DNA from: Wolbachia endosymbiont of Cylisticus convexus
GTDB lineage: Bacteria; Pseudomonadota; Alphaproteobacteria; Rickettsiales; Anaplasmataceae
Direction of reading: 5' to 3'
Assembly: GCF_003344345.1 (NCBI RefSeq)
Contig: NZ_QPIP01000091.1
Coordinates: 1 to 9,614 of the forward strand
DNA: 9,614 nucleotides
Position 1 is the stretch's first letter; each line of letters starts with the position of its first letter. The translations under genes were made by a program, and so were the position numbers. Shown piece by piece: positions 1-9,614 of this stretch. Below the pieces are notes generated by a model that worked only from the letters and a program-made list of their open reading frames with translations, ran no database searches and had not been told where the DNA came from.

Positions 1-15
1 TGGCTTTGTTGCATC
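1..15 (+). repeat. Left terminal inverted repeat of the IS5-family element
   Basis: Bases 1-15 are the exact reverse complement of 1063-1077. The inner 14 bases (2-15) are the likely true transposon end. Beyond the perfect part, similarity between the two ends drops to scattered matches. Confidence 0.85.
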
Positions 16-1076
16 ACTCAAGAGAAAAGAACTGGCAGTTACTGACAAAATTCATTATAGAATAGCCATTTAACCATTGAAGAAAAAATATGCCACAGCA
101 AATGAAAGTCAGTAACTGCAATGAATATAACAAATTTCTCCAAGAAAGAGGAAATATTTTTCATTTTATTAATAGAAAATTGGTACGAACATGGTCCAAA
201 AGTGTTCGGTGGCAACAATATTTACAGTGATAAAGTTGTGATTTTAGTGCATATAGTCGCTAGTCTCTTTAGAATTGGCTTAAGACAAACGGTAGGGTTT
301 ATAAAAGGATATTTGCAGCAAGTAGGAAAAGGCTTAGCAGTCATTAGCTATTCGCAGGCTTCAAGAAGGTTTAAAAAACTCAATATTAAGATCAATGATT
401 GCAGAGTTGACAAAAACAATATGGAAGATATTGAAATTGCCATAGACAGTACAAGTATCAGTATTTATAATAATACCCCTGGTCACAGTAAGGAAAATAG
501 TAAAGATAGAAAGTATCGCAGCTATGAACAGACAAGAAAATTGCATGTAATGTTGAATATAAATAGCAAAAACGCCATAGCTGTAAAATACAGTAACGGT
601 GTCTACTCTGATCACTTGTGATCTGCTAAAAAAAGTTGATTTTCAGCATGTCGTAAAAGTACTATATGCCGATAGGGCGTACGATAGGCATAAGCTTTAT
701 AAATTATGCAAAGAATATAATATAAAAGCAAAAATTCTACCAAAAACCTGTGCAGCAGAGCATTTAAAAATAGACTACATGTCTGATAGGAACACTGCTA
801 TTAGGTTAATCAAATTACATAATGAAGATGGTATGAAGAAGTGGAAAGAAAAAGTAAATTATGGAAAGAGGTCATATATTGAGGTTTTTTTTTCGCGACT
901 AAAACAAACATTTGGGTTTAGCTTTAGAAATAAATCCGAAGTAAATCGTGAAAAAGAATTGCTAATAAAATGCTACTTACTCAATAAATTTATTGAAATT
1001 GGCGTCGCTAAATTTGAGATAGCTTCATGAATTTATTATACATTATCTACTATCCAAAGAGCGATGCAACAAAGCC
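2..1076 (+). mobile_element. IS5-family insertion sequence (IS903-like ends)
   Basis: Complete in outline. A perfect 14-bp terminal inverted repeat, GGCTTTGTTGCATC at 2-15 and its complement at 1063-1076, bounds a transposase region of about 900 bp. The GGCTTTGTTG end resembles the ends of the IS903 group of the IS5 family, and the protein looks like an IS5-type DDE transposase. The repeat can be drawn one base longer on each side (1 and 1077). However, A1077 continues naturally into the neighbouring palindromic repeat, so 2-1076 is preferred. Only one base of left flank is visible, so a target duplication cannot be tested. The transposase frame is broken, so the copy is probably immobile unless helped in trans. 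Confidence 0.85.
121..1030 (+). pseudogene. IS5-family DDE transposase, split by a frameshift
   Basis: Two reading frames together spell one IS5-type transposase of about 300 residues. The first runs 121-621 (166 aa) and carries the first catalytic aspartate in IAIDSTS (D109). It continues with the block around KYRSYEQTRKLHVML. It stops at a TGA at 619-621, just after GVYSDH. The second frame picks up at once with CDLLKKV and runs to a TGA at 1028-1030. It holds the second aspartate in LYADRAYD and the catalytic glutamate in YIEVFFSRLK. Dropping one T near 616 joins the frames, so this looks like a one-base insertion. Some IS5 subgroups use programmed frameshifting, but I see no classic slippery heptamer here, so decay is more likely. 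The ATG at 121 follows the left end closely, as expected. Confidence 0.85.
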
Positions 1077-1077
1077 A
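1063..1077 (-). repeat. Right terminal inverted repeat of the IS5-family element
   Basis: GATGCAACAAAGCCA is the exact complement of the left end. The final A probably belongs to the flanking palindromic repeat and not to the element. Confidence 0.85.
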
Positions 1078-1196
1078 CTGGGATCTAGATATAAAAACAT
1101 TTGCAAATTGTTCAATGAACAACAGATTCTAGGAGCATACAATGTCCATGATGAAAGATAAAATAGGCTGGATCCCAGTGTCACGCACTGGGATGA
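1077..1196. repeat. Wolbachia-type palindromic repeat, interrupted by the IS5-family element
   Basis: The 3' hairpin is intact. ATCCCAGTG at 1172-1180 and CACTGGGAT at 1186-1194 form a perfect 9-bp stem around TCACG, followed by GACAG. ACTGGGATCTAG, immediately right of the insertion sequence (1077-1088), matches the right arm of a second such hairpin; compare ACTGGGATCCAG in rsmH at 3837-3848. The left arm should lie beyond the window start, which suggests the IS landed within the repeat. About 80 bp of AT-rich spacer lies between the two parts. The motif resembles the dispersed palindromic elements known in Wolbachia. Confidence 0.7.
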
Positions 1197-1229
1197 CAGG
1201 GAAAAAAGGCACTTGGATAACAATATTTT

Positions 1230-1259
1230 TTGTACTTTTGCATTCAATGTTCGTACAAT
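1230..1259 (+). promoter_or_regulatory. Possible promoter for map
   Basis: TTGTAC at 1230-1235 and TACAAT at 1254-1259, 18 bp apart, form a plausible sigma-70 type -35/-10 pair about 50 bp upstream of the map start. The two hexamers are also near inverted copies of each other (TTGTAC/GTACAA). This is pattern matching in AT-rich DNA, so it is tentative. Confidence 0.3.
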
Positions 1260-1310
1260 TATGTGTCAAGCAGTGGAATCTACTACGCAAGATGTGAATT
1301 ATAATAAGAA

Positions 1311-2102
1311 ATGGAAAACATGAACATAACTATACATTCACAAGAAGATTTTGACTTTATGCGTAAAGCTGGCAGGCTTGCAGCTGAAACTCTTGATTTC
1401 ATTGCACCATACGTCAAGGTAGGTGTAACAACTAATGAGTTAAATGATCTATGTCACGACTTTATAATCAATGCAGGTGCAATTCCAGCACCACTGAACT
1501 ATAAGGGATATCCAAAATCAATTTGCACTTCAAAAAATGCTGTTGTATGTCATGGTATTCCTGATGATAAACCTCTTAAAGATGGAGATATTTTAAATAT
1601 TGACGTTACAGTGATTTTAAATGGCTGGTATGGTGATACAAGTCGTATGTTTTGGGCTGGTAAACCCTCAATAAAAGCAAAGCGTTTGTGTAATGCTACT
1701 TATAATGCGCTAATGGAAGCAATAAAACAAGTCAGGCCAGGCAATAAGTTAAATGAAATAGGACTTACTATAGAAAAATATATTGGAGATTTCGGATATT
1801 CTATCGTACGCAATTATTGTGGACATGGCATAGGAAAGGTTTTTCATGCTCCACCAAATGTTGTACATTTTTATGATGAAGATGAGGATCTTGTCTTAAA
1901 AGAAGGCATGTTTTTTACAGTAGAACCAATGATCAATGCTGGAAATCATGAAACTCTGCTTAGTAAGCTAGATGGCTGGACAGTGACAACACGTGACCTT
2001 TCACTTTCTGCACAGTTTGAGCATACGCTTGGGGTAATAAAAGATGGTGTTGAAATATTTACATTATCACCTAAGAATTGGCATTTTCCACCTTATGATT
2101 AG
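1311..2102 (+). CDS. map: Methionine aminopeptidase, type I
   Basis: Removes the initiator methionine from nascent proteins in the cytoplasm using a two-metal centre. The 263-residue product has the usual bacterial length and a complete ligand set: D98 (LNIDVT), D109 (YGDTSR), H172 (GHGIG), E205 (VEPM) and E237 (FEHT). The substrate-binding histidines H81 (CHGIP) and H179 (FHAPP) are also present. There is no N-terminal zinc-binding linker, so it is the plain type Ia form. An in-frame ATG three codons on (1320) has a slightly better purine stretch (GGAAAA) in front and could be the real start. It stands alone, facing the convergent transporter gene across about 30 bp. It reads as intact and functional. 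Confidence 0.97.
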   Translation: MENMNITIHSQEDFDFMRKAGRLAAETLDFIAPYVKVGVTTNELNDLCHDFIINAGAIPAPLNYKGYPKSICTSKNAVVCHGIPDDKPLKDGDILNIDVTVILNGWYGDTSRMFWAGKPSIKAKRLCNATYNALMEAIKQVRPGNKLNEIGLTIEKYIGDFGYSIVRNYCGHGIGKVFHAPPNVVHFYDEDEDLVLKEGMFFTVEPMINAGNHETLLSKLDGWTVTTRDLSLSAQFEHTLGVIKDGVEIFTLSPKNWHFPPYD

Positions 2103-2135
2103 ATTTTTTTAAACACTTGGTTTTCGAAAAAATCT
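2101..2135. terminator. Possible bidirectional terminator between map and the transporter gene
   Basis: AGATTTTTT at 2101-2109 and AAAAAATCT at 2127-2135 are perfect 9-bp inverted repeats in the gap between two convergent genes. The arms provide T runs in both directions. The stem is almost all A-T and the loop is 17 bases, so it would be weak; position is the main argument. Confidence 0.4.
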
Positions 2136-3357
2136 AACTCTTAACTTGTGATATAGCAACTAACCCAATTAGTGCACAGAAAATCATGTAAAAACTTGCT
2201 AAAGCTCCTTGTCCTGTAATCTTGATAACAGTTGTGCATATAAATGGTGCAAGACCACCAAAAAATCCAGAAGCTATATTCCTTGATAAGCCAAATCCAC
2301 TGTATCGCACCCTTGTTGGAAATAATTCACACATAAACGCGCTAACAGGACCAAGCGATGCAGCTATTGGGATTATAAAAAGAACGTGCGCCATTATGGC
2401 GAGCAAATTATCACCACTTAGTATCATTGAAAAAACTGGATAACTTACTACTATAAAAGTCACAAATGCAAATTTCATGACTTTTTCTCTTCCTATCTTA
2501 TCAGAAAGTATTGCAAATAGTATAGTCAGTCCTCCAAGTGCAATTTGGTTCAATACTTCCACTATATGGTTAAAGTGAGTGTTGATTGTTGATGCAAGTA
2601 CATTGAAAAACACTAAATATATGTAAAGAGATGCATTTTCAACTATGTCAACTCCCACTGATATTAAGAAAGGTTTTTTATAGCCATTTAATAGTTCTTT
2701 TAACGGTAATTCATGTGGCTTTTCCTGCTTTTTATACTCTGGGCTTTCGTCAAGTATATATCTCATGTATATGCTGATTAATCCCATTACAAAACTAAAA
2801 ATAAAAGGCAATCTCCATCCCCAAGATTCAAAATTAGATACTTTCTTGCATATGAGTACCGCTATAAGACTTAATATTGAGCCGAGAATTGCGCTTAATA
2901 CTTCAATACTGCCAAAAAATCCTCTTTTATTCTTAGGAGCATGCTCTATTAAAAATGGCGCATTTCCTGCCTCTCCTCCAAGGGATATACCCTGCAATAA
3001 TCTTAAACATACCACCAGTATTGATGCTAGTACTCCAATTTCTTGATAACCCGGAACAAAGGCAATAAGTACGGTCGATAGAGTCATCAATATAATAGAG
3101 AGAAATAGAGCAATCCTTCTTCCATATTTATCGCCAATGTGGCCAAATATAGCAGCACCAATTGGTCTTATTAGGAAACCCACTGCAAACACTCCAAAAG
3201 CTTTAAGTATGCTGACTAATTTGTCATCTGACGGAAAAAACACATCTCCGATTATGCTTATTAGATGACTAAAAAGCATATGATCATACCACAACAAAGT
3301 GTTACAAATTAAACTTGATAGTATTACTTTTGTCATTTGTTGCACAAAATCTTCCAT
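2134..3357 (-). CDS. MFS transporter, metabolite:H+ symporter (MHS) family, ProP-like
   Basis: Predicted inner-membrane proton symporter of 407 residues with about 12 hydrophobic segments. MHS-family marks appear in order: N-terminal LLWYDHMLFS (21-30), GFLIRPIGA (60-68), the loop 2-3 signature FGHIGDKYGRR (71-81), LQGISLGGEAGNAPFLIEHA (121-140), WGWRLPF (179-185), the repeated loop LSDKIGREK (284-292), and ELFPTRVRYSGFGLS (344-358). E. coli ProP is about 500 residues with a C-terminal coiled coil used in osmosensing. Here the protein ends just after the last helix, so that part is absent. Substrate cannot be read from sequence; proline/betaine or a dicarboxylate are the usual options, so I give no gene symbol. 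There is no Shine-Dalgarno sequence before the ATG, but a good promoter lies just upstream. It is divergent from rsmH and reads as intact. Confidence 0.9.
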   Translation of the reverse strand: MEDFVQQMTKVILSSLICNTLLWYDHMLFSHLISIIGDVFFPSDDKLVSILKAFGVFAVGFLIRPIGAAIFGHIGDKYGRRIALFLSIILMTLSTVLIAFVPGYQEIGVLASILVVCLRLLQGISLGGEAGNAPFLIEHAPKNKRGFFGSIEVLSAILGSILSLIAVLICKKVSNFESWGWRLPFIFSFVMGLISIYMRYILDESPEYKKQEKPHELPLKELLNGYKKPFLISVGVDIVENASLYIYLVFFNVLASTINTHFNHIVEVLNQIALGGLTILFAILSDKIGREKVMKFAFVTFIVVSYPVFSMILSGDNLLAIMAHVLFIIPIAASLGPVSAFMCELFPTRVRYSGFGLSRNIASGFFGGLAPFICTTVIKITGQGALASFYMIFCALIGLVAISQVKS

Positions 3358-3369
3358 AATTTGTTTGAT

Positions 3370-3397
3370 ATTATAGTAATATTACTTACTTTTTCAA
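3370..3397 (-). promoter_or_regulatory. Strong candidate promoter for the ProP-like gene
   Basis: Read on the minus strand: TTGAAA (complement of 3392-3397), 16 bp, then a consensus TATAAT (complement of 3370-3375). A start about 7 bases beyond the -10 would give a 5' leader of only about five bases before the ATG at 3357. That fits the lack of a ribosome binding site, so the transcript may be near-leaderless. Confidence 0.5.
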
Positions 3398-3461
3398 ACG
3401 CGAATTATGTAAATATTATATTAATAATATTATCTTATTAAATCTTAATATTTTTATATCG

Positions 3462-3489
3462 TTGATTATATTTAAATATCCTTTATTAT
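3462..3489 (+). promoter_or_regulatory. Possible promoter for rsmH
   Basis: TTGATT at 3462-3467 and TATTAT at 3484-3489 are 16 bp apart, about 68 bp before the rsmH start. The 200-bp divergent gap is extremely AT-rich, so chance matches are easy and this is weak. Confidence 0.25.
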
Positions 3490-3557
3490 ACCTATATATT
3501 TCCATATATTTTTTGGCAAGAAAGTTATTTTAATTTAAGTGCACAAAGTCTCTTGAT

Positions 3558-4514
3558 ATGACACATACTCCAGTTTTGTTAAAAGAGATGCTATTGCAAT
3601 TATTACCACAAAGTGATAGCATATATGTAGATGCCACATTTGGAGCTGGAGGATATAGCAAAGCAATATTAGAGTCCGCTGATTGCAAAGTGTATGCAAT
3701 TGATAGAGATGAAACAGTTACCGAATTTTATGATGATCTGAACGTTAAATATCCTAATAGAATAAAATTGTTTATTGAAAAGTTTAGTAATATTAAAAGT
3801 ATACTGAATAAATCTTCTGTCATCCCAGTACTTGATACTGGGATCCAGAAAAAAAATAACTGGATTCCAGCGTCACGCGCTGGAATGACATCAAATGGAG
3901 TGGATGGCATAGTTTTTGACGTTGGAGTTTCATCTATGCAACTCAACAATGGAAACAGAGGATTTTCATTTTTACGTGATGGTCCGCTTAACATGAGCAT
4001 GGATAACTATTCTCATATGAATGCTTCAACGTTTGTTAACGCTTTACGTGAAGAAGAGATTGCAAACACTATATACAATTACGGGGGCGAGCGTCATTCT
4101 CGTAGAATCGCAAGAGCGATAGTAAATACGCGGAAGAAGAAAACTATCAAAACTACATTTGAACTTGCAGATATCGTACGTTCTGTAGTGTTTCGTGGAA
4201 AAAGCAAGATTGACCCTGCCACTAGGACATTTCAGGCGATCAGGATATGGGTAAATGATGAGCTAGGAGAGCTTGAAAAGGGTATTAAAGCTGCATCTGA
4301 GATTTTAAACGAGAATGGCAAATTAATCGTTGTCACCTTTCATTCTCTAGAAGACCGTATAGTTAAAATCCTTTTTAAAGATTTATGTGAATCAGAATCT
4401 ACCAAGACATTCTCTCTTTTAAATAAAAAAGTGATGAAAGCAAGTGCAGAAGAAGTAAACACAAATCCACGAGCGCGTTCAGCAAAACTAAGAGCTATAC
4501 AGAGGTTGTCATGA
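3558..4514 (+). CDS. rsmH: 16S rRNA (cytosine-N4) methyltransferase RsmH (MraW), with an in-frame palindromic insert
   Basis: Methylates N4 of C1402 in the 16S rRNA decoding site using S-adenosylmethionine. The product has 318 residues. The start MTHTPVLLKEM is the family N-terminus, although no clear ribosome site precedes it. Motifs in order: SAM-binding VDATFGAGGYS (24-34), VDGIVFDVGVSSMQL (115-129), GFSFLRDGPLNMSMD (135-149), HSRRIARAIV (180-189), PATRTFQAIRIWVNDEL (220-236), FHSLEDRIVK (261-270) and NPRARSAKLR (303-312). Residues about 88-111 (VIPVLDTGIQ to WIPASRAGMT) have no counterpart in the family and are encoded by a palindromic repeat. They fall just before the conserved VDGIVFD strand, in a stretch expected to tolerate additions. 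Without them the length is about 294. The stop overlaps the ftsL start as ATGA (4511-4514), the normal dcw-cluster order. Confidence 0.96.
   Translation: MTHTPVLLKEMLLQLLPQSDSIYVDATFGAGGYSKAILESADCKVYAIDRDETVTEFYDDLNVKYPNRIKLFIEKFSNIKSILNKSSVIPVLDTGIQKKNNWIPASRAGMTSNGVDGIVFDVGVSSMQLNNGNRGFSFLRDGPLNMSMDNYSHMNASTFVNALREEEIANTIYNYGGERHSRRIARAIVNTRKKKTIKTTFELADIVRSVVFRGKSKIDPATRTFQAIRIWVNDELGELEKGIKAASEILNENGKLIVVTFHSLEDRIVKILFKDLCESESTKTFSLLNKKVMKASAEEVNTNPRARSAKLRAIQRLS
3818..3891 (+). repeat. Wolbachia-type palindromic element inside rsmH
   Basis: About 74 bp made of two imperfect hairpins that are also inverted relative to each other. Hairpin one has ATCCCAGTA (3822-3830) pairing TACTGGGAT. 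Hairpin two has ATTCCAGCG (3864-3872) pairing CGCTGGAAT (3878-3886). The outer ends TGTCATCCCA and TGGAATGACA also pair, so the whole element is a long palindrome. It adds a whole number of codons without a stop. The same motif occurs intergenically at 1077-1196. Protein-coding palindromic repeats are known from Rickettsia and Wolbachia. Confidence 0.85.
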
Positions 4515-4778
4515 GGACCTTTTGTATCATTTTAATAATTATGTTTTCTTTAGCATTACAGGGTTATTTAAGGTAAAATTACACGTCCTGTCACTAAATA
4601 GAGAGCTAACACAAATAAAACGTGAAATTAATTTAGTGCAAAAAGCGACATAAAAGTCCTGCGAGCAGAATGGAGTTATTTGAGTAATCCAAAAAGGCTG
4701 GCAAGCCTTATGGAGAAATACCTAAAAAATAACTCTTTGATACTAGCTAGCCAGGTTCGACTCTCTAAATGGCCGTAG
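4511..4778 (+). pseudogene. ftsL: Cell division protein FtsL, broken by two single-base losses
   Basis: FtsL is a small bitopic membrane protein that joins FtsQ and FtsB in the divisome. The gene starts at the ATGA overlap with rsmH, its standard place. Frame one gives a membrane segment, FCIILIIMFSLALQGYL, then stops at TAA 4574-4576. Frame two continues KVKLHVLSLNRELTQIKREI, the coiled-coil part, and stops at 4651-4653. Frame three gives KVLRAEWSYLSNPKRLASLM, the most conserved FtsL block, and ends at TAG 4776-4778. Restoring one A near 4571 (TTTAAG to TTTAAAG) and one A near 4651 (ACATAA to ACAATAA) yields a single 89-residue protein with KATIKVLRAEW in register. The coding signal is well preserved, so the breaks are recent or are sequencing errors. 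The piece is too short and split to appear as one open frame. Confidence 0.85.
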
Positions 4779-4842
4779 TGTGTTAGCAAAATTAAAAACC
4801 CATAGTAACGATTAGATTTAAGCTTTTAGATAAACACACTAC
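4775..4842. repeat. 10-bp inverted repeat between ftsL remnant and the NDUFS4-like gene
   Basis: GTAGTGTGTT at 4775-4784 is the exact complement of AACACACTAC at 4833-4842, enclosing 48 AT-rich bases. It lies between two convergent coding regions and overlaps the ftsL stop codon, so a terminator role is possible. There is no clear T tract and the loop is long. Confidence 0.35.
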
Positions 4843-4850
4843 AATAAAAC

Positions 4851-5150
4851 TTACTTTGGCATGAAATTATTTGCATAAGATTTTGGCAGCCTTTTAACAT
4901 CTTTTGGCATTTCAATTGTGTATTTTGTGTTATGTTTCTTTGCATAAGATACTGCTTTTTCAAGAGAATCAAACTTTAATGCAATCTGTTTTTTTGGGTC
5001 TTTTGAGCCAACCCACCCCATCAAAGGTTCAATATAGTAAGAACAAGGTTCAACTTTTAAGTACCAGAATTTTGTATTACCTAGACCAGATTGTGTTGCA
5101 GTTTTTGTTGGCCTATAAATCTTAAAAACTACTTGATCGTCAATACTCAT
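4851..5150 (-). CDS. NADH dehydrogenase (complex I) accessory subunit, NDUFS4-like
   Basis: A 99-residue protein of the ETC complex I subunit family, the bacterial counterpart of mitochondrial NDUFS4 (18 kDa), found mainly in Alphaproteobacteria. It is expected to sit on the peripheral arm of NADH:ubiquinone oxidoreductase and help assembly or stability. Family features visible: FKIYRPTKTATQSG near the N-terminus (residues 9-22), then NTKFWYLKVEP (25-35), IEPLMGWVGSKDP (40-52) with the conserved EPLMGW core, and the C-terminal FDSLEKAVSYAKKH and YTIEMP segments. Length and order match alphaproteobacterial members. No membrane segment is present. It faces the ftsL remnant and diverges from rplY. 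It reads as intact. Confidence 0.9.
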   Translation of the reverse strand: MSIDDQVVFKIYRPTKTATQSGLGNTKFWYLKVEPCSYYIEPLMGWVGSKDPKKQIALKFDSLEKAVSYAKKHNTKYTIEMPKDVKRLPKSYANNFMPK

Positions 5151-5188
5151 AGCTCTTACTAAGTAATCTTAAGTATATATCTAAATAA

Positions 5189-5219
5189 ATTCTTTCACAA
5201 AGAATTAGTGTGAAAGAAT
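5189..5219. repeat. Perfect 11-bp inverted repeat in a divergent promoter region
   Basis: ATTCTTTCACA (5189-5199) and TGTGAAAGAAT (5209-5219) flank a 9-base spacer. It lies between the NDUFS4-like gene (start 5150, minus) and rplY (start 5293, plus). No T run follows on either strand in the way a terminator requires. An operator-like dyad or a structured leader on the minus transcript are the alternatives. Weak -10-like TATATT sequences follow it on the rplY side around 5246-5272. Confidence 0.6.
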
Positions 5220-5280
5220 GAAGTTTAAAATAAATATTTTTATGTTATATTATTAAATTATATTAAAAGGATTAGCTGAA

Positions 5281-5295
5281 TAGGAGTAATCGATG
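5281..5295 (+). promoter_or_regulatory. Ribosome binding site for the original rplY start
   Basis: AGGAG (5282-5286) sits six bases before the ATG at 5293. It is one of the clearest Shine-Dalgarno sequences in the window and places the original start at 5293, not at the internal ATG 5355. Confidence 0.7.
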
Positions 5296-5903
5296 GTACA
5301 GCAAGAAATGGTAACAATTAATGCAGAATTACGTGATGTAAAAAAAAGAAAGAGATGCAGGCTCTTAGGGAAAAGGGAAGTATACCTGCAGTTATATATG
5401 GCAAAGGGCATGATAACGTAAATTTGACACTATCTGCAAAGGAATTTACTAAGCAATATAAATTAGGTACTCTTTCTGCACATCTAATAGAACTGGATAT
5501 TTCGGGTAAAAAAGAATATGCTCTTGTTCGTGATATTCAATGGCATGTAGTAAAGGATACTGTGCAACATGTTGATTTTCAGTTTGTTGATAAAGGTAGT
5601 GAAATTAAAATAGATATACCTTTATCGTTCATAAATGAAAGTAAATCACCAGGAATTAAATTAGGTGGAGTGCTTAATGTTTTGTGTCGTTCTATTACTG
5701 TCAAATGCTCTCCTGATAAAATACCTCAAGTCATAGAAATTGATTTATCTGGCAAAATGATTGGTCAGTCTATACATATCAATGATGTAAAATTACCAGA
5801 AGGTGTTAAGTTTGTAGTTCATGAGGAAGAAAATTTCACCATTGTGACAATCTCTGCTGCTGATAGTGATATTGAAAAGCCTCAAACAAAAACAGAGGAG
5901 TAG
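5293..5903 (+). pseudogene. rplY: Ribosomal protein L25 (CTC/TL5 form), N-terminus out of frame across an A8 tract
   Basis: L25 of the general-stress CTC type binds 5S rRNA in the large subunit. The true start is the ATG at 5293: AGGAG stands at 5282-5286 with good spacing, and the first residues MVQQEMVTINAELRDV are the family N-terminus. After an A8 run (5340-5347) that frame fails and stops at 5419-5421. The rest reads from an internal ATG at 5355 (MQALREKGSIPAVIYG) to the TAG at 5901-5903, 182 residues. It includes KKEYALVRDIQWHVVKDTV and the TL5 C-terminal domain. One more A (A9) would give DVKKKKEMQALREKG and a full 203-residue protein. The downstream frame is clean, so either the change is recent, polymerase slippage on the A tract supplies some full-length protein, or it is a sequencing error. 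The internal ATG lacks a clear ribosome site. Confidence 0.85.
5340..5347 (+). repeat. A8 tract at the rplY frame break
   Basis: Eight consecutive A residues lie exactly where the N-terminal frame and the body frame of rplY separate; nine would restore the gene. Poly(A) tracts of this length can cause transcriptional slippage in AT-rich endosymbionts. Confidence 0.75.
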
Positions 5904-6469
5904 TGCATTTAATAGCTGGGCTTGGTAATCCTGGTAGTCAATATGAATTAACTCATCATAATATCGGCTTCATCATCGTTGATGCAATCTACAAATATTG
6001 GAATTTTCAGTCATTTTCTAAGAAAGCCGATTACTTGATAACCTCTGGCATAATTAATAATAATAAAATCATGCTGATAAAACCTTATTCATTTATGAAT
6101 AATTCAGGTATCCCTATTACAAAAATAAAAAATTTTTACAAGTTATCGCTAGATAATATTGTTGTCATACATGATGATGCTGATTTGAAATTTGGAAGAA
6201 TAAAAGTAAAAAAAGGCGGCAGCTCTGCTGGACATAATGGACTTAAGTCTATAGATAGCTTTATTGGTAATGATTATTGGCGTTTGAGATTTGGAGTGGG
6301 TAGGCCTGAAAATCAGAAAAGCTTAGCAGATTATGTGTTATCAAAATTTTCAAATTTTGATAACGTTATCCTCTTAGTAGAAAAAATAGCAAAAAATATA
6401 CACTTAATGCTGCAAGGAGATAACACAGCTTTTATCAACTCGGTTGGGAGTATGTTAAATAAACTTTAG
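5903..6469 (+). CDS. pth: Peptidyl-tRNA hydrolase
   Basis: Releases tRNA from peptidyl-tRNAs that drop off the ribosome; an essential cytoplasmic enzyme. The 188 residues match the bacterial Pth length. Active-site residues are all present: N9 (LGNPG), catalytic H19 (LTHHNIG), N66 (FMNNSG), D91 (HDDADL) and N112 (GHNGLKS). RLRFGVGRP (127-135) and the later DYVLSKF are further family marks. The start is a GTG whose first G is the last base of the rplY TAG, a one-base overlap that implies translational coupling; rplY-pth is a common bacterial pair. MHLIAGLGNPG is the canonical N-terminus, so no other start is needed. No terminator is evident after it, and mobile-element debris begins about 30 bp downstream. 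Confidence 0.97.
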   Translation: MHLIAGLGNPGSQYELTHHNIGFIIVDAIYKYWNFQSFSKKADYLITSGIINNNKIMLIKPYSFMNNSGIPITKIKNFYKLSLDNIVVIHDDADLKFGRIKVKKGGSSAGHNGLKSIDSFIGNDYWRLRFGVGRPENQKSLADYVLSKFSNFDNVILLVEKIAKNIHLMLQGDNTAFINSVGSMLNKL

Positions 6470-6498
6470 TATAGCAATCGAATAGGACATCTACCGTC

Positions 6499-7358
6499 TT
6501 AAACATCAAGATAAAAATTATTATTTTTTATCATAGCATTTAAACAAATGATGATTTTTCTCATTACAGCAACTTTAGCGGCTTTGCCAGAGTCAACTAA
6601 ACGCTGGTAAAATACTTTCATTTTTTTATTATGACGCATTGCAACCACAGCAGACATGTATAATGCTTTTCGAGCATAAAATCTGCCACCTATGATTTGA
6701 GCTTTGCTTATTTTCCTTCCGATTTCGTTGGTTTTTGGCAACTAGACAAGCTATTTCCTTATTATCTAACCTACCAAGTTCAGGTACCTCTATGAGTAGG
6801 ATACTTGCGGTCAACACCTTTATAGCTAGTTAGCAGTTTGCTTTTTTCCTTCAAATCAGGATCAGAGTTCTTCTATGTCTTGCCTAATTTGCTCTTTTGC
6901 AAATTCTATCTGTTTTTCTATATATTCCCTGGCTTTTCCTGTTGCAAACGGCACTTATTTGCATATCGTTTAGATTGCGCTCAACTGCTCTTTTAGTTCT
7001 TCTTGCTTTTGTGAAACTATGTATTCTATTACCTCGTCATTTTTTGTGATAAATTCAGCATATTTTTCTAGTAATTTTGCATCTAATTTATCTGTTTTTG
7101 CAAAGTGGTTGCAGACCTTTGCAAACCCGATTTGGGTGAGCTCTGTGAACAGCTATGTTATGTTCCCGTAACAACTTTATGACAAGTTTTTCATAACCAC
7201 CTGTTTACACATAACCTAACAAGTACGTTAACTATTTTTGACTTTATAAACTCAGATATAGCTCTTTCTACATTTTCTATACGCTGATGTTTATTATCGA
7301 TTGAGATATCAAGTGTTTCTTTTGAAACATCAAAAAACTGTTCTAGCCATTTTTGTAC
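6499..7358 (-). pseudogene. IS110-family transposase, decayed by multiple frameshifts
   Basis: Read from 7358 down, fragments in several frames follow the order of an IS110 DEDD transposase. First is FFDVSKETLDISI with the first acidic residue, then GYEKLVIKLLREHNIAVHRA and HFAKTDKLDAKLLEKYAEF with the DxxD pair. A helical middle follows (KQEELKEQL, EYIEKQIEFAKEQIRQDIEE). Next come LTASILLIEVPELGRLDNKE, the region before the C-terminal domain, and finally 6499-6741 with GRKISKAQIIGGRFYARKAL and a clean end. At least five frameshifts or small deletions separate them, for example the short loss between residues ACLV and PKTNE near 6740. Total length is close to one full transposase, so the gene decayed in place and was not truncated. 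No element ends were identified; IS110 members lack clear inverted repeats. Confidence 0.85.
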
Positions 7359-7602
7359 CTATAAATATAATCAAATAATAATGTAAATGCTGTACAGGAT
7401 TGTTTTTAGATCCCCCTACCGTTCGTACTCCATTTTTTAAAGCTAGGAGTGTACTGAGATGCCTACGATTTCTATCAATCAATCCAATTGACAGCTTGCT
7501 CATTATAGCCTTGCGGCTTTGATTTAATATACAATCATTTATATTACCTTAAAGCCTTACTATGCCTTTATTATCCCTTTGGGGAAACCTCTTTTAAGTT
7601 AG
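7359..7602. other. Stretch without recognised genes between two IS110 remnants
   Basis: About 240 bp of AT-rich sequence. A 57-codon open frame (7330-7503, minus) runs through part of it into the IS110 remnant in a wrong frame and matches nothing I recognise. A short stem AGCC-TTGC-GGCT lies at about 7508-7519. It is probably old insertion-sequence flank. Confidence 0.4.
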
Positions 7603-7712
7603 CTATATGATACCACTTGTTATACTTTCAACACTTATGATATCTATTCCCGCTGAGTTAGGATTCATTACCTATAATTTGCTTTTTTTGTTTTTTGTTT
7701 GGTAGAAGTCAT
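7603..7712 (-). pseudogene. N-terminal scrap of a second IS110/IS1111-type transposase
   Basis: From 7712 the minus strand reads MTSTKQKTKKANYR then a stop. One base out of frame follows MNPNSAGIDIISVES (ATG 7666-7668), ending at TAG 7603-7605. Restoring one T joins them as NYRLMNPNSAGIDI. The AGIDI motif after a short basic leader is the usual N-terminus of IS110/IS1111 transposases, where the D is the first catalytic residue. It differs from the N-terminus of the neighbouring remnant (FFDVSKETLD), so it comes from another element. Only about 35 codons remain. The identification rests on a short motif. Confidence 0.5.
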
Positions 7713-7772
7713 AGTCCTATCCACCTTGTTTGAGTTTTATTTTTATGACTCCCCCACAAGAACCGTGCTTGC
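7702..7772 (-). ncRNA. 3' end of a group II intron (part of domain V plus domain VI), remnant
   Basis: On the minus strand, GCAAGCACGGTTC (7760-7772) followed by TTGTGGGGGAG looks like the 3' half of a group II domain V and its linker. AGTCATA and TATGACT (7744-7750 and 7707-7713 on the plus strand) are 7-bp inverted repeats that could form the domain VI stem. The end would be CTAC near 7702. The 5' half of domain V is missing from the adjoining sequence; instead another intron's 3' end abuts it at 7773. Confidence 0.45.
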
Positions 7773-7862
7773 GTAGAGTAGGTAGCCAGCGAGTTACTAC
7801 TAAGCACTTTTCCAACAACCCCTCTCCGAACCACGCATGACTGTTTCCGTATCACGTGGCTC
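7773..7862 (-). ncRNA. 3' end of a group II intron with complete domain V, remnant
   Basis: Positions 7828-7862 read on the minus strand as a 35-nt domain V. The lower stem is GAGCCACG paired with CGTGGTTC, with the AGC catalytic triad and a GGAAAC-type internal region. It is followed by GGAGAGGGG, a domain VI-like stretch, and an end at CTACTCTAC near 7773. It directly follows the HNH-type end of an intron-encoded protein on the same strand, the normal order at the 3' end of a mobile group II intron. Confidence 0.65.
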
Positions 7863-8034
7863 TCCGATAATCTTTACATTTTAAGGAATCACCATCATAT
7901 TTACCATATTGGATTTTCTTATGGCATTCATGACAAACAACAAGAGTTTTCCTCTGTCATTCAATCATTCTTTTCTTCCATTCAGGTAGTTTATAGCTCT
8001 TTTCATAATAGTACAAACGAGGTAAAATAAGATT
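7852..8034 (-). pseudogene. C-terminal (HNH-like) fragment of a group II intron-encoded protein
   Basis: Read from 8034 down: NLILPRLYYYEKSYKLPEWK, KKRMIE, an internal TGA, then QRKTLVVCHECHKKIQYGKY and DGDSLKCKDYRRAT with a stop at 7852-7854. The block RxRKTLVxCxxCH close to the C-terminus is typical of the zinc-binding/HNH-like tail of bacterial group II intron proteins. The stop codon lies inside the start of domain V, as is common in these introns. The reverse transcriptase and maturase parts are missing. Sequence upstream of about 8034 is replaced by the IS630-type element on the other strand. The in-frame TGA shows decay. Confidence 0.7.
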
Positions 8035-8054
8035 TTATAGTAGTGAAGGTAAGT

Positions 8055-8234
8055 ATGCCAGCAGCATATAGTTATGATTTAAGAAAAAAAGCAATGGAAT
8101 CACTAGAAGAAGGAGAAAGCAGAGAAGCAGTGGCAGCAAGATTTAAAATTGGAAGAACTACGTTATGGGAGTGGCAGCAAAGAAAAAAGAAACAGGAGAT
8201 TTTCAGTCAAAAAAACTTGGAAATGGAGGTTATA
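8055..8234 (+). pseudogene. IS630-type transposase, 5' part, interrupted by a group II intron
   Basis: MPAAYSYDLRKKAMESLEEG begins a helix-turn-helix DNA-binding domain (REAVAARFKIGRTTLWEWQQ) typical of IS630-family transposases in Wolbachia and cyanobacteria. The ATG at 8055 has GAAGG five bases upstream; an in-frame GTG at 8043 is less likely. At an A6 run (8183-8188) the frame slips. With one more A it would continue as QRKKETGDFQSKKLGNGGYS, whereas the actual frame wanders on to a stop near 8279. At 8235 a group II intron begins, so the catalytic DDE domain would lie beyond the intron, outside the window. The element's own end must lie within a few tens of bases left of 8055; no inverted repeat could be tested. 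Confidence 0.7.
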
Positions 8235-8772
8235 GTGTGCCGTAGTGATGCAAGGAATGGTCAGAAAAGAGCAAACTGAGTACTTAAGCTACGCAATAGA
8301 TGAGGGTGGGCCCCTCGGAGCCGATTTACAAGAGCAGGCTTCAAACAACCATAAGCTGCTTTGGTAAAGAGCCAAGGTAGTGAGCGTTATGGAAAAGGCG
8401 CAGTTATGTGTCATGTGTGAAATAGAGAGATGAACGAAAGTGAACCACTGATAAAGTGTCGAAACCATAACTGATGACGTCAAAACCAGGGGCTTATAAC
8501 TCAACTGGGATAAATCTACCGGGAGCTTGTTTACGGGGTAGGAGGCGTCCGGCATAAAGGTGGCATGAATCTATTTTAGGCTATTGTGTAGAACTACGGG
8601 AACCTGTCGTTTCGATGATAAGGGAGAAATTCAAGGAGCTAAACTCTAAGGATGAGAGTACCAATGCGGAAAACAGGGGCGCGTAGTAGTGAAGAAGTTT
8701 CTGTAATGGAAATGGAGCGAAGGAGTTGAGTTATTCAGTTTTAATTATGTATCAACCGAAAGGGAGGAGTTA
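8235..8772 (+). ncRNA. Group II intron ribozyme 5' domains
   Basis: This 538-nt stretch holds no real coding region. Its base composition is clearly less AT-rich than the surroundings. It ends in AAGGGAGGAG, which supplies the ribosome binding site for the reverse transcriptase. EBS1 candidate TATAAC is at 8495-8500. Individual domains were not folded, so only the 5' end and EBS1 are assigned. Confidence 0.65.
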
Positions 8773-9614
8773 ATGAATAAAACAAAGTCTTTTGATATAC
8801 CAAAGCAACTTATTTGGAGGGCTTATAAACAAGTATCGAAAAATAAAGGTGCGGCTGGTGTGGATGAGGTATCGATAACAAGGTTTGAAGAGAACCTGAA
8901 GGATAATCTGTACAAACTATGGAATCGGATGTCATCAGGAAGTTATTTTCCAGAGCCTGTAAAAGCTGTAGCAATACCGAAAGATACGGGAGGGGGACAA
9001 AGAATTTTAGGTGTTCCTTCAGTATTCGACAGGATAGGGCAAACGGCCGCTTCTATGTATCTTGAGCCGCTAGTAGAACCAAAATTCCATGAAGATTCAT
9101 ATGGTTATAGACCGAATAAATCAGCACTGGATGCGGTAGATACGGCAAGGAAAAGATGCTGGAGGTATGATTGGACGATAGATCTAGATATATCCGGGTT
9201 TTTCGACAATTTGGATCACGAGTTGGCATTGCAAGCTATCAAGAAGCATACAAATTGCAAATGGGTCATACTATACGTTGAAAGGTGGATAAAATCCCCT
9301 ATAAAACTTGCAGATGGCAGTAAGGTAGTTAGGGATAAAGGAGTTCCGCAAGGAGGTTCAGTTAGCCCAATCATCTCTAATATATTCATGCATCATGTGT
9401 TTGATATATGGATGAAAAAGAACTACCCGACGGTACCATTTGAGAGATATGTGGATGATGCGATAGTGCACTGCAGAACAGAGAAACAGGCAGAATTTGT
9501 GAAAGTAATGATCGAAGAAAGATTGGCTGAGTATAAGTTGAAATTACATCCTGAAAAGACACAGATAGTGTACTGTAAGGATGACAATAGGAGAGATGAA
9601 TTTCCTAAACAAAG
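8773..9614 (+). CDS. Group II intron-encoded reverse transcriptase/maturase, partial (3' end outside the window)
   Basis: Open from ATG 8773 to the window edge, 280 codons, without a stop or frameshift. GGGAGGAG at 8762-8769 is a strong ribosome site. RT motifs in order: NKGAAGVDEVS (24-34), FPEPVKAVAIPK (59-70), QRILGVPSVFDRIGQ (76-90), SYGYRPNKSALDAV (109-122), DLDISGFFDNLDHELA (137-152) with the first catalytic aspartate, GVPQGGSVSPIISNIF (190-205), and RYVDDAIVH (225-233) with the catalytic DD pair at 228-229. LKLHPEKTQIVYCK (256-269) follows. The box is YVDD where YADD is the commoner form. The maturase (X) and any HNH domain would lie downstream. The protein should bind the intron RNA to aid splicing and copy it at new sites. 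The HNH-like scrap at 7852-8034 may be from a related intron. Confidence 0.95.
   Translation, partial: MNKTKSFDIPKQLIWRAYKQVSKNKGAAGVDEVSITRFEENLKDNLYKLWNRMSSGSYFPEPVKAVAIPKDTGGGQRILGVPSVFDRIGQTAASMYLEPLVEPKFHEDSYGYRPNKSALDAVDTARKRCWRYDWTIDLDISGFFDNLDHELALQAIKKHTNCKWVILYVERWIKSPIKLADGSKVVRDKGVPQGGSVSPIISNIFMHHVFDIWMKKNYPTVPFERYVDDAIVHCRTEKQAEFVKVMIEERLAEYKLKLHPEKTQIVYCKDDNRRDEFPKQ

Follow-up and report, generated by a model that had tools for sequence, protein, structure and literature searches.

Palindromic DNA read in frame within protein-coding genes is already known as a kind, from the Rickettsia palindromic elements (RPE), from Wolbachia inserts resembling the Wolbachia palindromic element (WPE) and from the CGTC-type repetitive extragenic palindromic (REP) sequences. 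The WPE reportedly goes back to Ogata 2005. Here we analyse such an element in rsmH, the gene for the 16S rRNA (cytosine(1402)-N(4))-methyltransferase, on a 9614-nt stretch of DNA from the Wolbachia endosymbiont of Cylisticus convexus (contig NZ_QPIP01000091.1, positions 1–9614; hereafter the window). A preliminary description of this DNA had reported a palindromic repeat within rsmH and had noted that coding palindromic repeats occur in Rickettsiales, which the RPE and the WPE-like inserts bear out.

The published accounts of these repeats have treated them separately. A passage in PMC3733652 denies any relation between the CGTC-4 repeats of Wolbachia and the WPE of the Brugia symbiont. The same source gives a spacing between partners that varies among CGTC families, and spacer length is therefore not defining for CGTC repeats. 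For addA, addB and priA, PMC4224334 describes in-frame inserts like the WPE, and RPE inserts have been mapped onto structure models (PMC3767692). WsnRNA-46 (Rfam WsnRNA46, RF02625) is presented in a section of a review as a microRNA-like RNA of Wolbachia that increases dynein heavy chain in the host (PMC10161253), is said in a passage elsewhere to bind a palindromic sequence in the murD open reading frame and to lower murD (PMC5105140), and is listed in an excerpt of a third paper among the most often annotated small RNAs, with within-strain repeats counted (PMC9029176).

Anatomy and reading frame of the insert

The rsmH gene (3558–4514, plus strand) encodes 318 amino acids that match TIGR00006 at 294.6 bits (cut-off 154.3) and PF01795 at 306.6 bits (cut-off 27). 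Within it, positions 3818–3890 (plus strand) form a 73-bp palindrome of two 30-bp REP hairpins set head to head. The left monomer (3818–3847, plus strand) has a TGTC tag, a 9-bp stem, a 5-nt loop (CTTGA) and a CCA tail. An A-rich 13-nt spacer (3848–3860, plus strand) separates it from the inverted right monomer (3861–3890, minus strand), which has the same tag, stem length and tail and the loop CGTGA. The unpaired TGTC tags start at 3818 on the plus strand and at 3890 on the minus strand, and stem, loop and tail of both monomers are those of the CGTC type, which is defined by an 8–9-bp stem, a loop of 4–5 nt and a CCA tail. The preliminary description had placed an element of about 74 bp at 3818–3891; the element stands, but its core measures 73 bp.

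The dimer lies in the phase of the rsmH frame, contains no stop codon and adds 24 residues to RsmH (318 versus 294 amino acids), so that the unbroken frame and the roughly 24 extra residues were read correctly at the outset. Only one of the three frames on each strand is stop-free across the 73 bp, and the peptides of the two open strands, VIPVLDTGIQKKNNWIPASRAGMT (the rsmH frame) and VIPARDAGIQLFFFWIPVSSTGMT, are nearly alike. Whichever way the element is oriented, therefore, one of the three phases can be read through and results in a similar loop. At the RNA level, the 91-nt stretch 3810–3900 was predicted to fold into one long hairpin of −37.1 kcal/mol, compared with a mean of −15.9 for shuffled sequences (z −7.3; none of 200 shuffles was equally stable). 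A scan of window positions 3803–3906 against RF02625 gave 56.6 bits on the plus strand (E 2.7e-10) and 44.9 bits on the minus strand. Rfam also gave a weak hit to FtrB.

RsmH with and without the insert

We collected the best 120 of 8000 scored RsmH proteins, a list biased to the window's own form. The insert was present in 39 of them (the window's included) and absent from 81, one of which (P0093) slipped past the search pattern and was classed by eye. It is retained at the same place in records P0002–P0009. None of the 16 non-Wolbachia rows of our alignment (A1) contains the inserted segment; one of these proteins (L020) has a longer loop, unrelated to it. The preliminary description had suggested such an alignment and had asked whether all alphaproteobacterial RsmH proteins share a homologous segment. 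They do not, and its absence from 16 of 16 non-Wolbachia rows led us to reject a native RsmH extension.

The number of residues between F76 and D121 varies freely. It is 20 residues in the six empty Wolbachia rows and in 12 of the 16 non-Wolbachia rows (17, 18, 21 and 31 in the remaining four), and 33 to 62 residues in the 35 filled rows. A wider DNA set comprised 42 rsmH genes, 25 of them filled; in three empty genes (L088, L091 and L092) the interval, judged by eye, is down to 17 residues. Short filled forms are in-frame deletions within the dimer, and in several other lineages the filled forms are longer and eroded. A tree of the 42 genes with the insert removed was poorly rooted, with long branches, and its deep part supports no claim. 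One of 41 genomes (G030) gave no RsmH match.

Predicted structure and selection

The AlphaFold model of the filled RsmH (57-row alignment) had a mean pLDDT of 86.5, with residues 87–112 below 50 and the remaining fold in place, and that of an empty allele (P0017, 43 rows) had a mean of 93.2 and the same structural elements. After removal of the low-confidence stretch, the filled model aligned with Thermus thermophilus RsmH (1wg8) over 281 of 281 residues at 1.4 Å and has the RsmH fold. The insert is thus probably a disordered loop in the turn between helix 76–85 and strand 4, the kind of placement that the preliminary description had proposed to check by modelling. In class I methyltransferases, the turn before strand 4 faces away from the S-adenosylmethionine (SAM) side, and by this general analogy the loop would lie away from the SAM pocket.

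Comparison of the window's rsmH with nine relatives gave a dN/dS of 0.08–0.11 outside the insert (dS 0.32–0.72), and this part of the gene is under purifying selection. Because the fold is intact in the AlphaFold model and dN/dS is low, RsmH with the insert probably still works as an enzyme. The earlier suggestion that the protein is otherwise intact and may be active agrees with this result and with its TIGR00006 score.

A short allele block that cuts across clades

We examined 18 of the 42 aligned genes, which fall into an A-like (8 genes) and a B-like (10 genes) clade (the labels are our own). Both insert states occur in both clades: six filled and two empty genes in the A-like clade, three filled and seven empty in the B-like clade. 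In alignment columns counted from the insert start, the 34 sites that separate the clades all have positions of −55 or less or of +207 or more, and the 11 sites that separate filled from empty genes all lie inside −11 to +188. When state labels were permuted within clades, each of 500 trials yielded zero state-linked sites. The filled gene of G015 and the empty gene L079 have a dS of just 0.055 in the rest of rsmH. The insert state therefore forms, with a few bases on its flanks, a short block that cuts across the two clades, and strains have probably exchanged filled and empty alleles. A short block with its own history, passed between strains, is the simplest reading, with ancient shared polymorphism as a possible alternative. 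Among protein records, P0020 and P0089 comprise a group-A-named record with a B-type empty allele and a group-B-named record with an A-type one, a pattern that either exchange between supergroups or misnaming of records would produce.

Spread of the element across genomes and genes

The rsmH element was matched in 9 of 12 genomes. The closest genomes, G015 and G023, contain at least 58 and at least 57 matches; these are lower bounds that favour rsmH-like copies, because scoring covered 40 of 94 and 40 of 80 candidates. Judged in these two relatives, the element has the many copies of a CGTC-type REP. It occurs elsewhere in these related genomes as well, which the earlier reading required. In G015, 54 of the 58 matches merged into 40 sites, of which 12 were wholly inside open frames of at least 120 amino acids and 28 outside, with no partial overlaps. 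All 12 in-frame sites show, by eye, at least a partial VIP or WIP reading. Ten of the 12 frames were scanned against protein families. Nine matched a family at E 1e-15 or better (RibD, PriA, muramoyltetrapeptide carboxypeptidase, AlaS, AddB, AddA, MurE, a CcmF/NrfE-type lyase and a PRK06567-type protein, although several matches were under the curated cut-off and some frames were cut by stretch ends) and one, of 133 amino acids, matched none. The other two are rsmH itself and a frame that shares flanks with ComEC of L098 and holds a copy 95% identical to the rsmH element.

Among 40 stretches picked via peptide-search matches, open frames of 250 amino acids or more contained 46 in-frame stretches. 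Their 21 representatives comprise 19 kinds of protein, many of which are usually essential: ComEC, PRK06567-type, IleS, FolC, AddA, ClpB, cytochrome c1, NAD-GDH, PBP2-type transpeptidase, LysS, CarB, SecD, MurE, MetG, HscA, MurA, AlaS, LeuS and Der (the PRK06567-type, AddA and PBP2-type matches fall below curated cut-offs). The exceptional tolerance that the preliminary description ascribed to rsmH is not borne out by this range. The insert is likely tolerated because the turn before strand 4 varies freely in length, and not because the catalytic core is unusually tolerant.

We searched 786 kb of Wolbachia DNA (including overlaps, and mostly chosen for containing such repeats) for the tag-N23-CCA pattern. 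It returned 118 distinct sequences, 45 of which had eight or nine of nine stem pairs, compared with 0 of 85 in block-shuffled DNA. Among these 45, which were picked for pairing, pairs 3 and 8 vary, with both T-A and C-G seen.

A second dimer and other features of the window

The repeat had also been reported at 1077–1196. A related dimer is indeed present at 1077–1198, but it is not the same 74-bp unit. An intact monomer lies between genes (1169–1198, minus strand), preceded by a truncated partner (about 1077–1089) and a spacer of another type, about 80 nt long (together 1077–1168, plus strand). Similar DNA to this second type occurs in L116 (within a cytochrome c1 frame), L098 and L123. The truncated monomer abuts the right end of an insertion sequence (IS) element (1–1077, plus strand) with 19-bp inverted ends (one mismatch) and a DDE transposase in two overlapping frames, and the dimer lost its left half at the IS end. 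REPs serve as IS targets in other bacteria (PMC1525189).

Downstream of rsmH, an ftsL-like frame (4514–4680) looks disrupted, in the window as well as in L055, L056 and L079, and the start of a ribosomal L25-like gene (5293–5355) looks frameshifted in an A run; both gene names were assigned by eye. Transposase-like remnants with several frameshifts are seen by eye at 6499–7560 (minus strand). Group II intron matches were found at 8302–8415 (plus strand) and 7773–7864 (minus strand), with 101.2 bits for RF01999 and 47.8 bits for RF00029 on the minus strand, and an open frame from about 8773 to the window end (plus strand) resembles an intron reverse transcriptase by eye.

Origin of the insert and rival explanations

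The following reading of the locus is, in our judgement, highly probable. A REP dimer of the TGTC-tagged (CGTC) type, with its hairpins head to head, would have entered rsmH early in Wolbachia history, presumably once. It would have stayed because it landed in the sole readable phase and in the turn between helix 76–85 and strand 4, where it would be translated in the cell as a flexible, presumably neutral 24-residue loop that did not stop RsmH activity. Later trimming and extension in three-base steps would have produced the alleles observed, and short-tract recombination would have carried filled and empty versions from one strain to another.

Several observations weigh against parts of this reading. 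Addition of a 19th gene (L067, initially excluded) left 34 clade sites but reduced the state-linked sites from 11 to 4, still within the block, and the block has only 88 ungapped columns. The longer forms elsewhere carry a different right half, behind which a second insertion or gene conversion may lie. The filled rsmH of G012 (L094, G012:C1:901300-903300) is broken downstream of the insert into a 241-amino-acid frame and another piece with a stop. In the filled model, residues 111–120 (the insert end and the start of strand 4) have a pLDDT of 78, compared with 94–96 in the matching blocks of the empty model, and the insert may slightly disturb strand 4; the 57-row alignment is thin at the insert, which the low pLDDT there may partly reflect.

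The differing right-hand monomers, together with the near-identical G015 copy in the ComEC-like frame, would also fit a hot spot at which REP dimers inserted several times independently or were converted by other copies, the empty alleles being primary and not exchanged. The 60 monomer bases are moreover identical between the window and G015 despite 78 differences at 881 other rsmH bases (P ~0.004, one comparison). This conservation was not repeated in G023, whose right monomer has two changes, and in both clades the insert state is followed by flanking bases outside the element, as would not be the case after fresh insertions. We regard a hot spot as unlikely. A role in RNA, in which the hairpin of the rsmH message pairs with a WsnRNA46-type RNA or alters message stability or translation, seems distinctly improbable. 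The hairpin is very stable, its RF02625 match has an E value of 2.7e-10 and the reported binding to the murD palindrome offers a precedent, but the score is under the gathering score of 65.3 bits and most of the best-matching RsmH (81 of 120) lack the insert. The base-pairing test was negative: co-folding with one WsnRNA46-like RNA gained −2.7 (sense) and −4.2 (antisense) kcal/mol, compared with −2.4 to −4.5 for four other rsmH stretches, and the gains of four shuffled RNAs were larger (−5.5 to −10.7 kcal/mol). Little is gained because both partners favour their own hairpins. It would be a long shot to suppose, further, that WsnRNA46 is a transcript of REP-family members with the coding copies (rsmH, murE, ccmF-type, addB and others) as natural pairing partners. 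Dispersed palindromes would then tie many housekeeping messages to one RNA family, and the genes wired in would differ by strain as filled and empty alleles recombine.

The shifted look of the neighbouring ftsL-like and L25-like frames and the broken rsmH of G012 could suggest that the window's rsmH is decaying and the insert debris. We rejected this very improbable reading given the low dN/dS, the stop-free frame and the retention of the insert in P0002–P0009. Repeats can also mislead assembly, but an artefact has negligible probability and is refuted for the insert as such, since P0002–P0009, G015 and G023 share the insert at this position.

Comparison with known repeat families

The rsmH finding is real and the preliminary description was correct in outline; the locus is a clear natural example of strains carrying, trimming and swapping a repeat. 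As far as the relevant part of PMC3733652 describes them, CGTC-4 REPs share with the rsmH dimer the TGTC tag variant, a stem starting A-T then T-A, the 9-bp stem, 5-nt loop and CCA tail, the head-to-head arrangement and the occurrence in Wolbachia, and intragenic CGTC units are known. The rsmH spacer is 13 nt, however, whereas that of Wolbachia CGTC-4 dimers is 1–2 bp, and the match is one of architecture. The RPE-4, RPE-6 and RPE-7 elements of Rickettsia are likewise in-frame palindromic inserts in orthologous housekeeping genes, frequently with ATGAC (passages in PMC3767692 and PMC3733652); they belong to another genus, and the likeness is by description.

The WPE domain (TIGR02697) shares the peptide ending and the kind of in-frame insertion with the rsmH copy, but the latter has a shorter spacer and scores 18.6 bits (cut-off 27.55) over positions 23–36 (14 of 36). 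In G015, MurE, the CcmF-type protein and AddB match TIGR02697 at 80.6, 74.5 and 102.9 bits. In their WPE-domain DNA a REP monomer forms one end or both, the spacer measures about 45–50 nt, and the RF02625 scores are 62.3, 70.5 and 64.9 bits, only the second passing the gathering score. RF02625-type copies thus sit inside the murE, ccmF-type and addB frames. WsnRNA46 is itself a double hairpin of two inverted monomers, from which the rsmH copy differs in its shorter spacer and its score below the gathering threshold. A search of 41 Wolbachia-genus genomes found RF02625 in 33, at 7 to 56 matches apiece (at most 56 candidates scored); 30 of them had matches above the cut-off, and none of 14 control genomes had any match.

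WsnRNA46 of Rfam has the behaviour of a dispersed family of REP dimers, and its frequent annotation is what a repeat family would give. CGTC-type REP dimers, the WPE domain and WsnRNA46 have a common dimer architecture and differ in their spacers. The overlap of REP and TIGR02697 argues against the stated unrelatedness of CGTC-4 and WPE, for what TIGR02697 describes. In our literature search, Wolbachia, mraW and palindromic jointly returned nothing, and none of the papers listed tied WsnRNA46 to REP or WPE, the murD statement (PMC5105140) coming nearest; Mayoral 2014 or Ogata 2005 may already state such a tie.

The locus provides a natural series of helix-to-strand lengths (17 to 62 residues) in a single loop of an enzyme whose distribution extends from bacteria to mitochondria, and because filled and empty alleles occur in close relatives, the cost of an in-frame repeat becomes directly measurable. 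If WsnRNA46 is a multi-copy repeat family, reads and effects assigned to that small RNA need re-examination with all copies considered. Compared with the described systems, what is new here is the allele length series, the exchange block and the link between REP, WPE and WsnRNA46, three catalogues so far kept separate.
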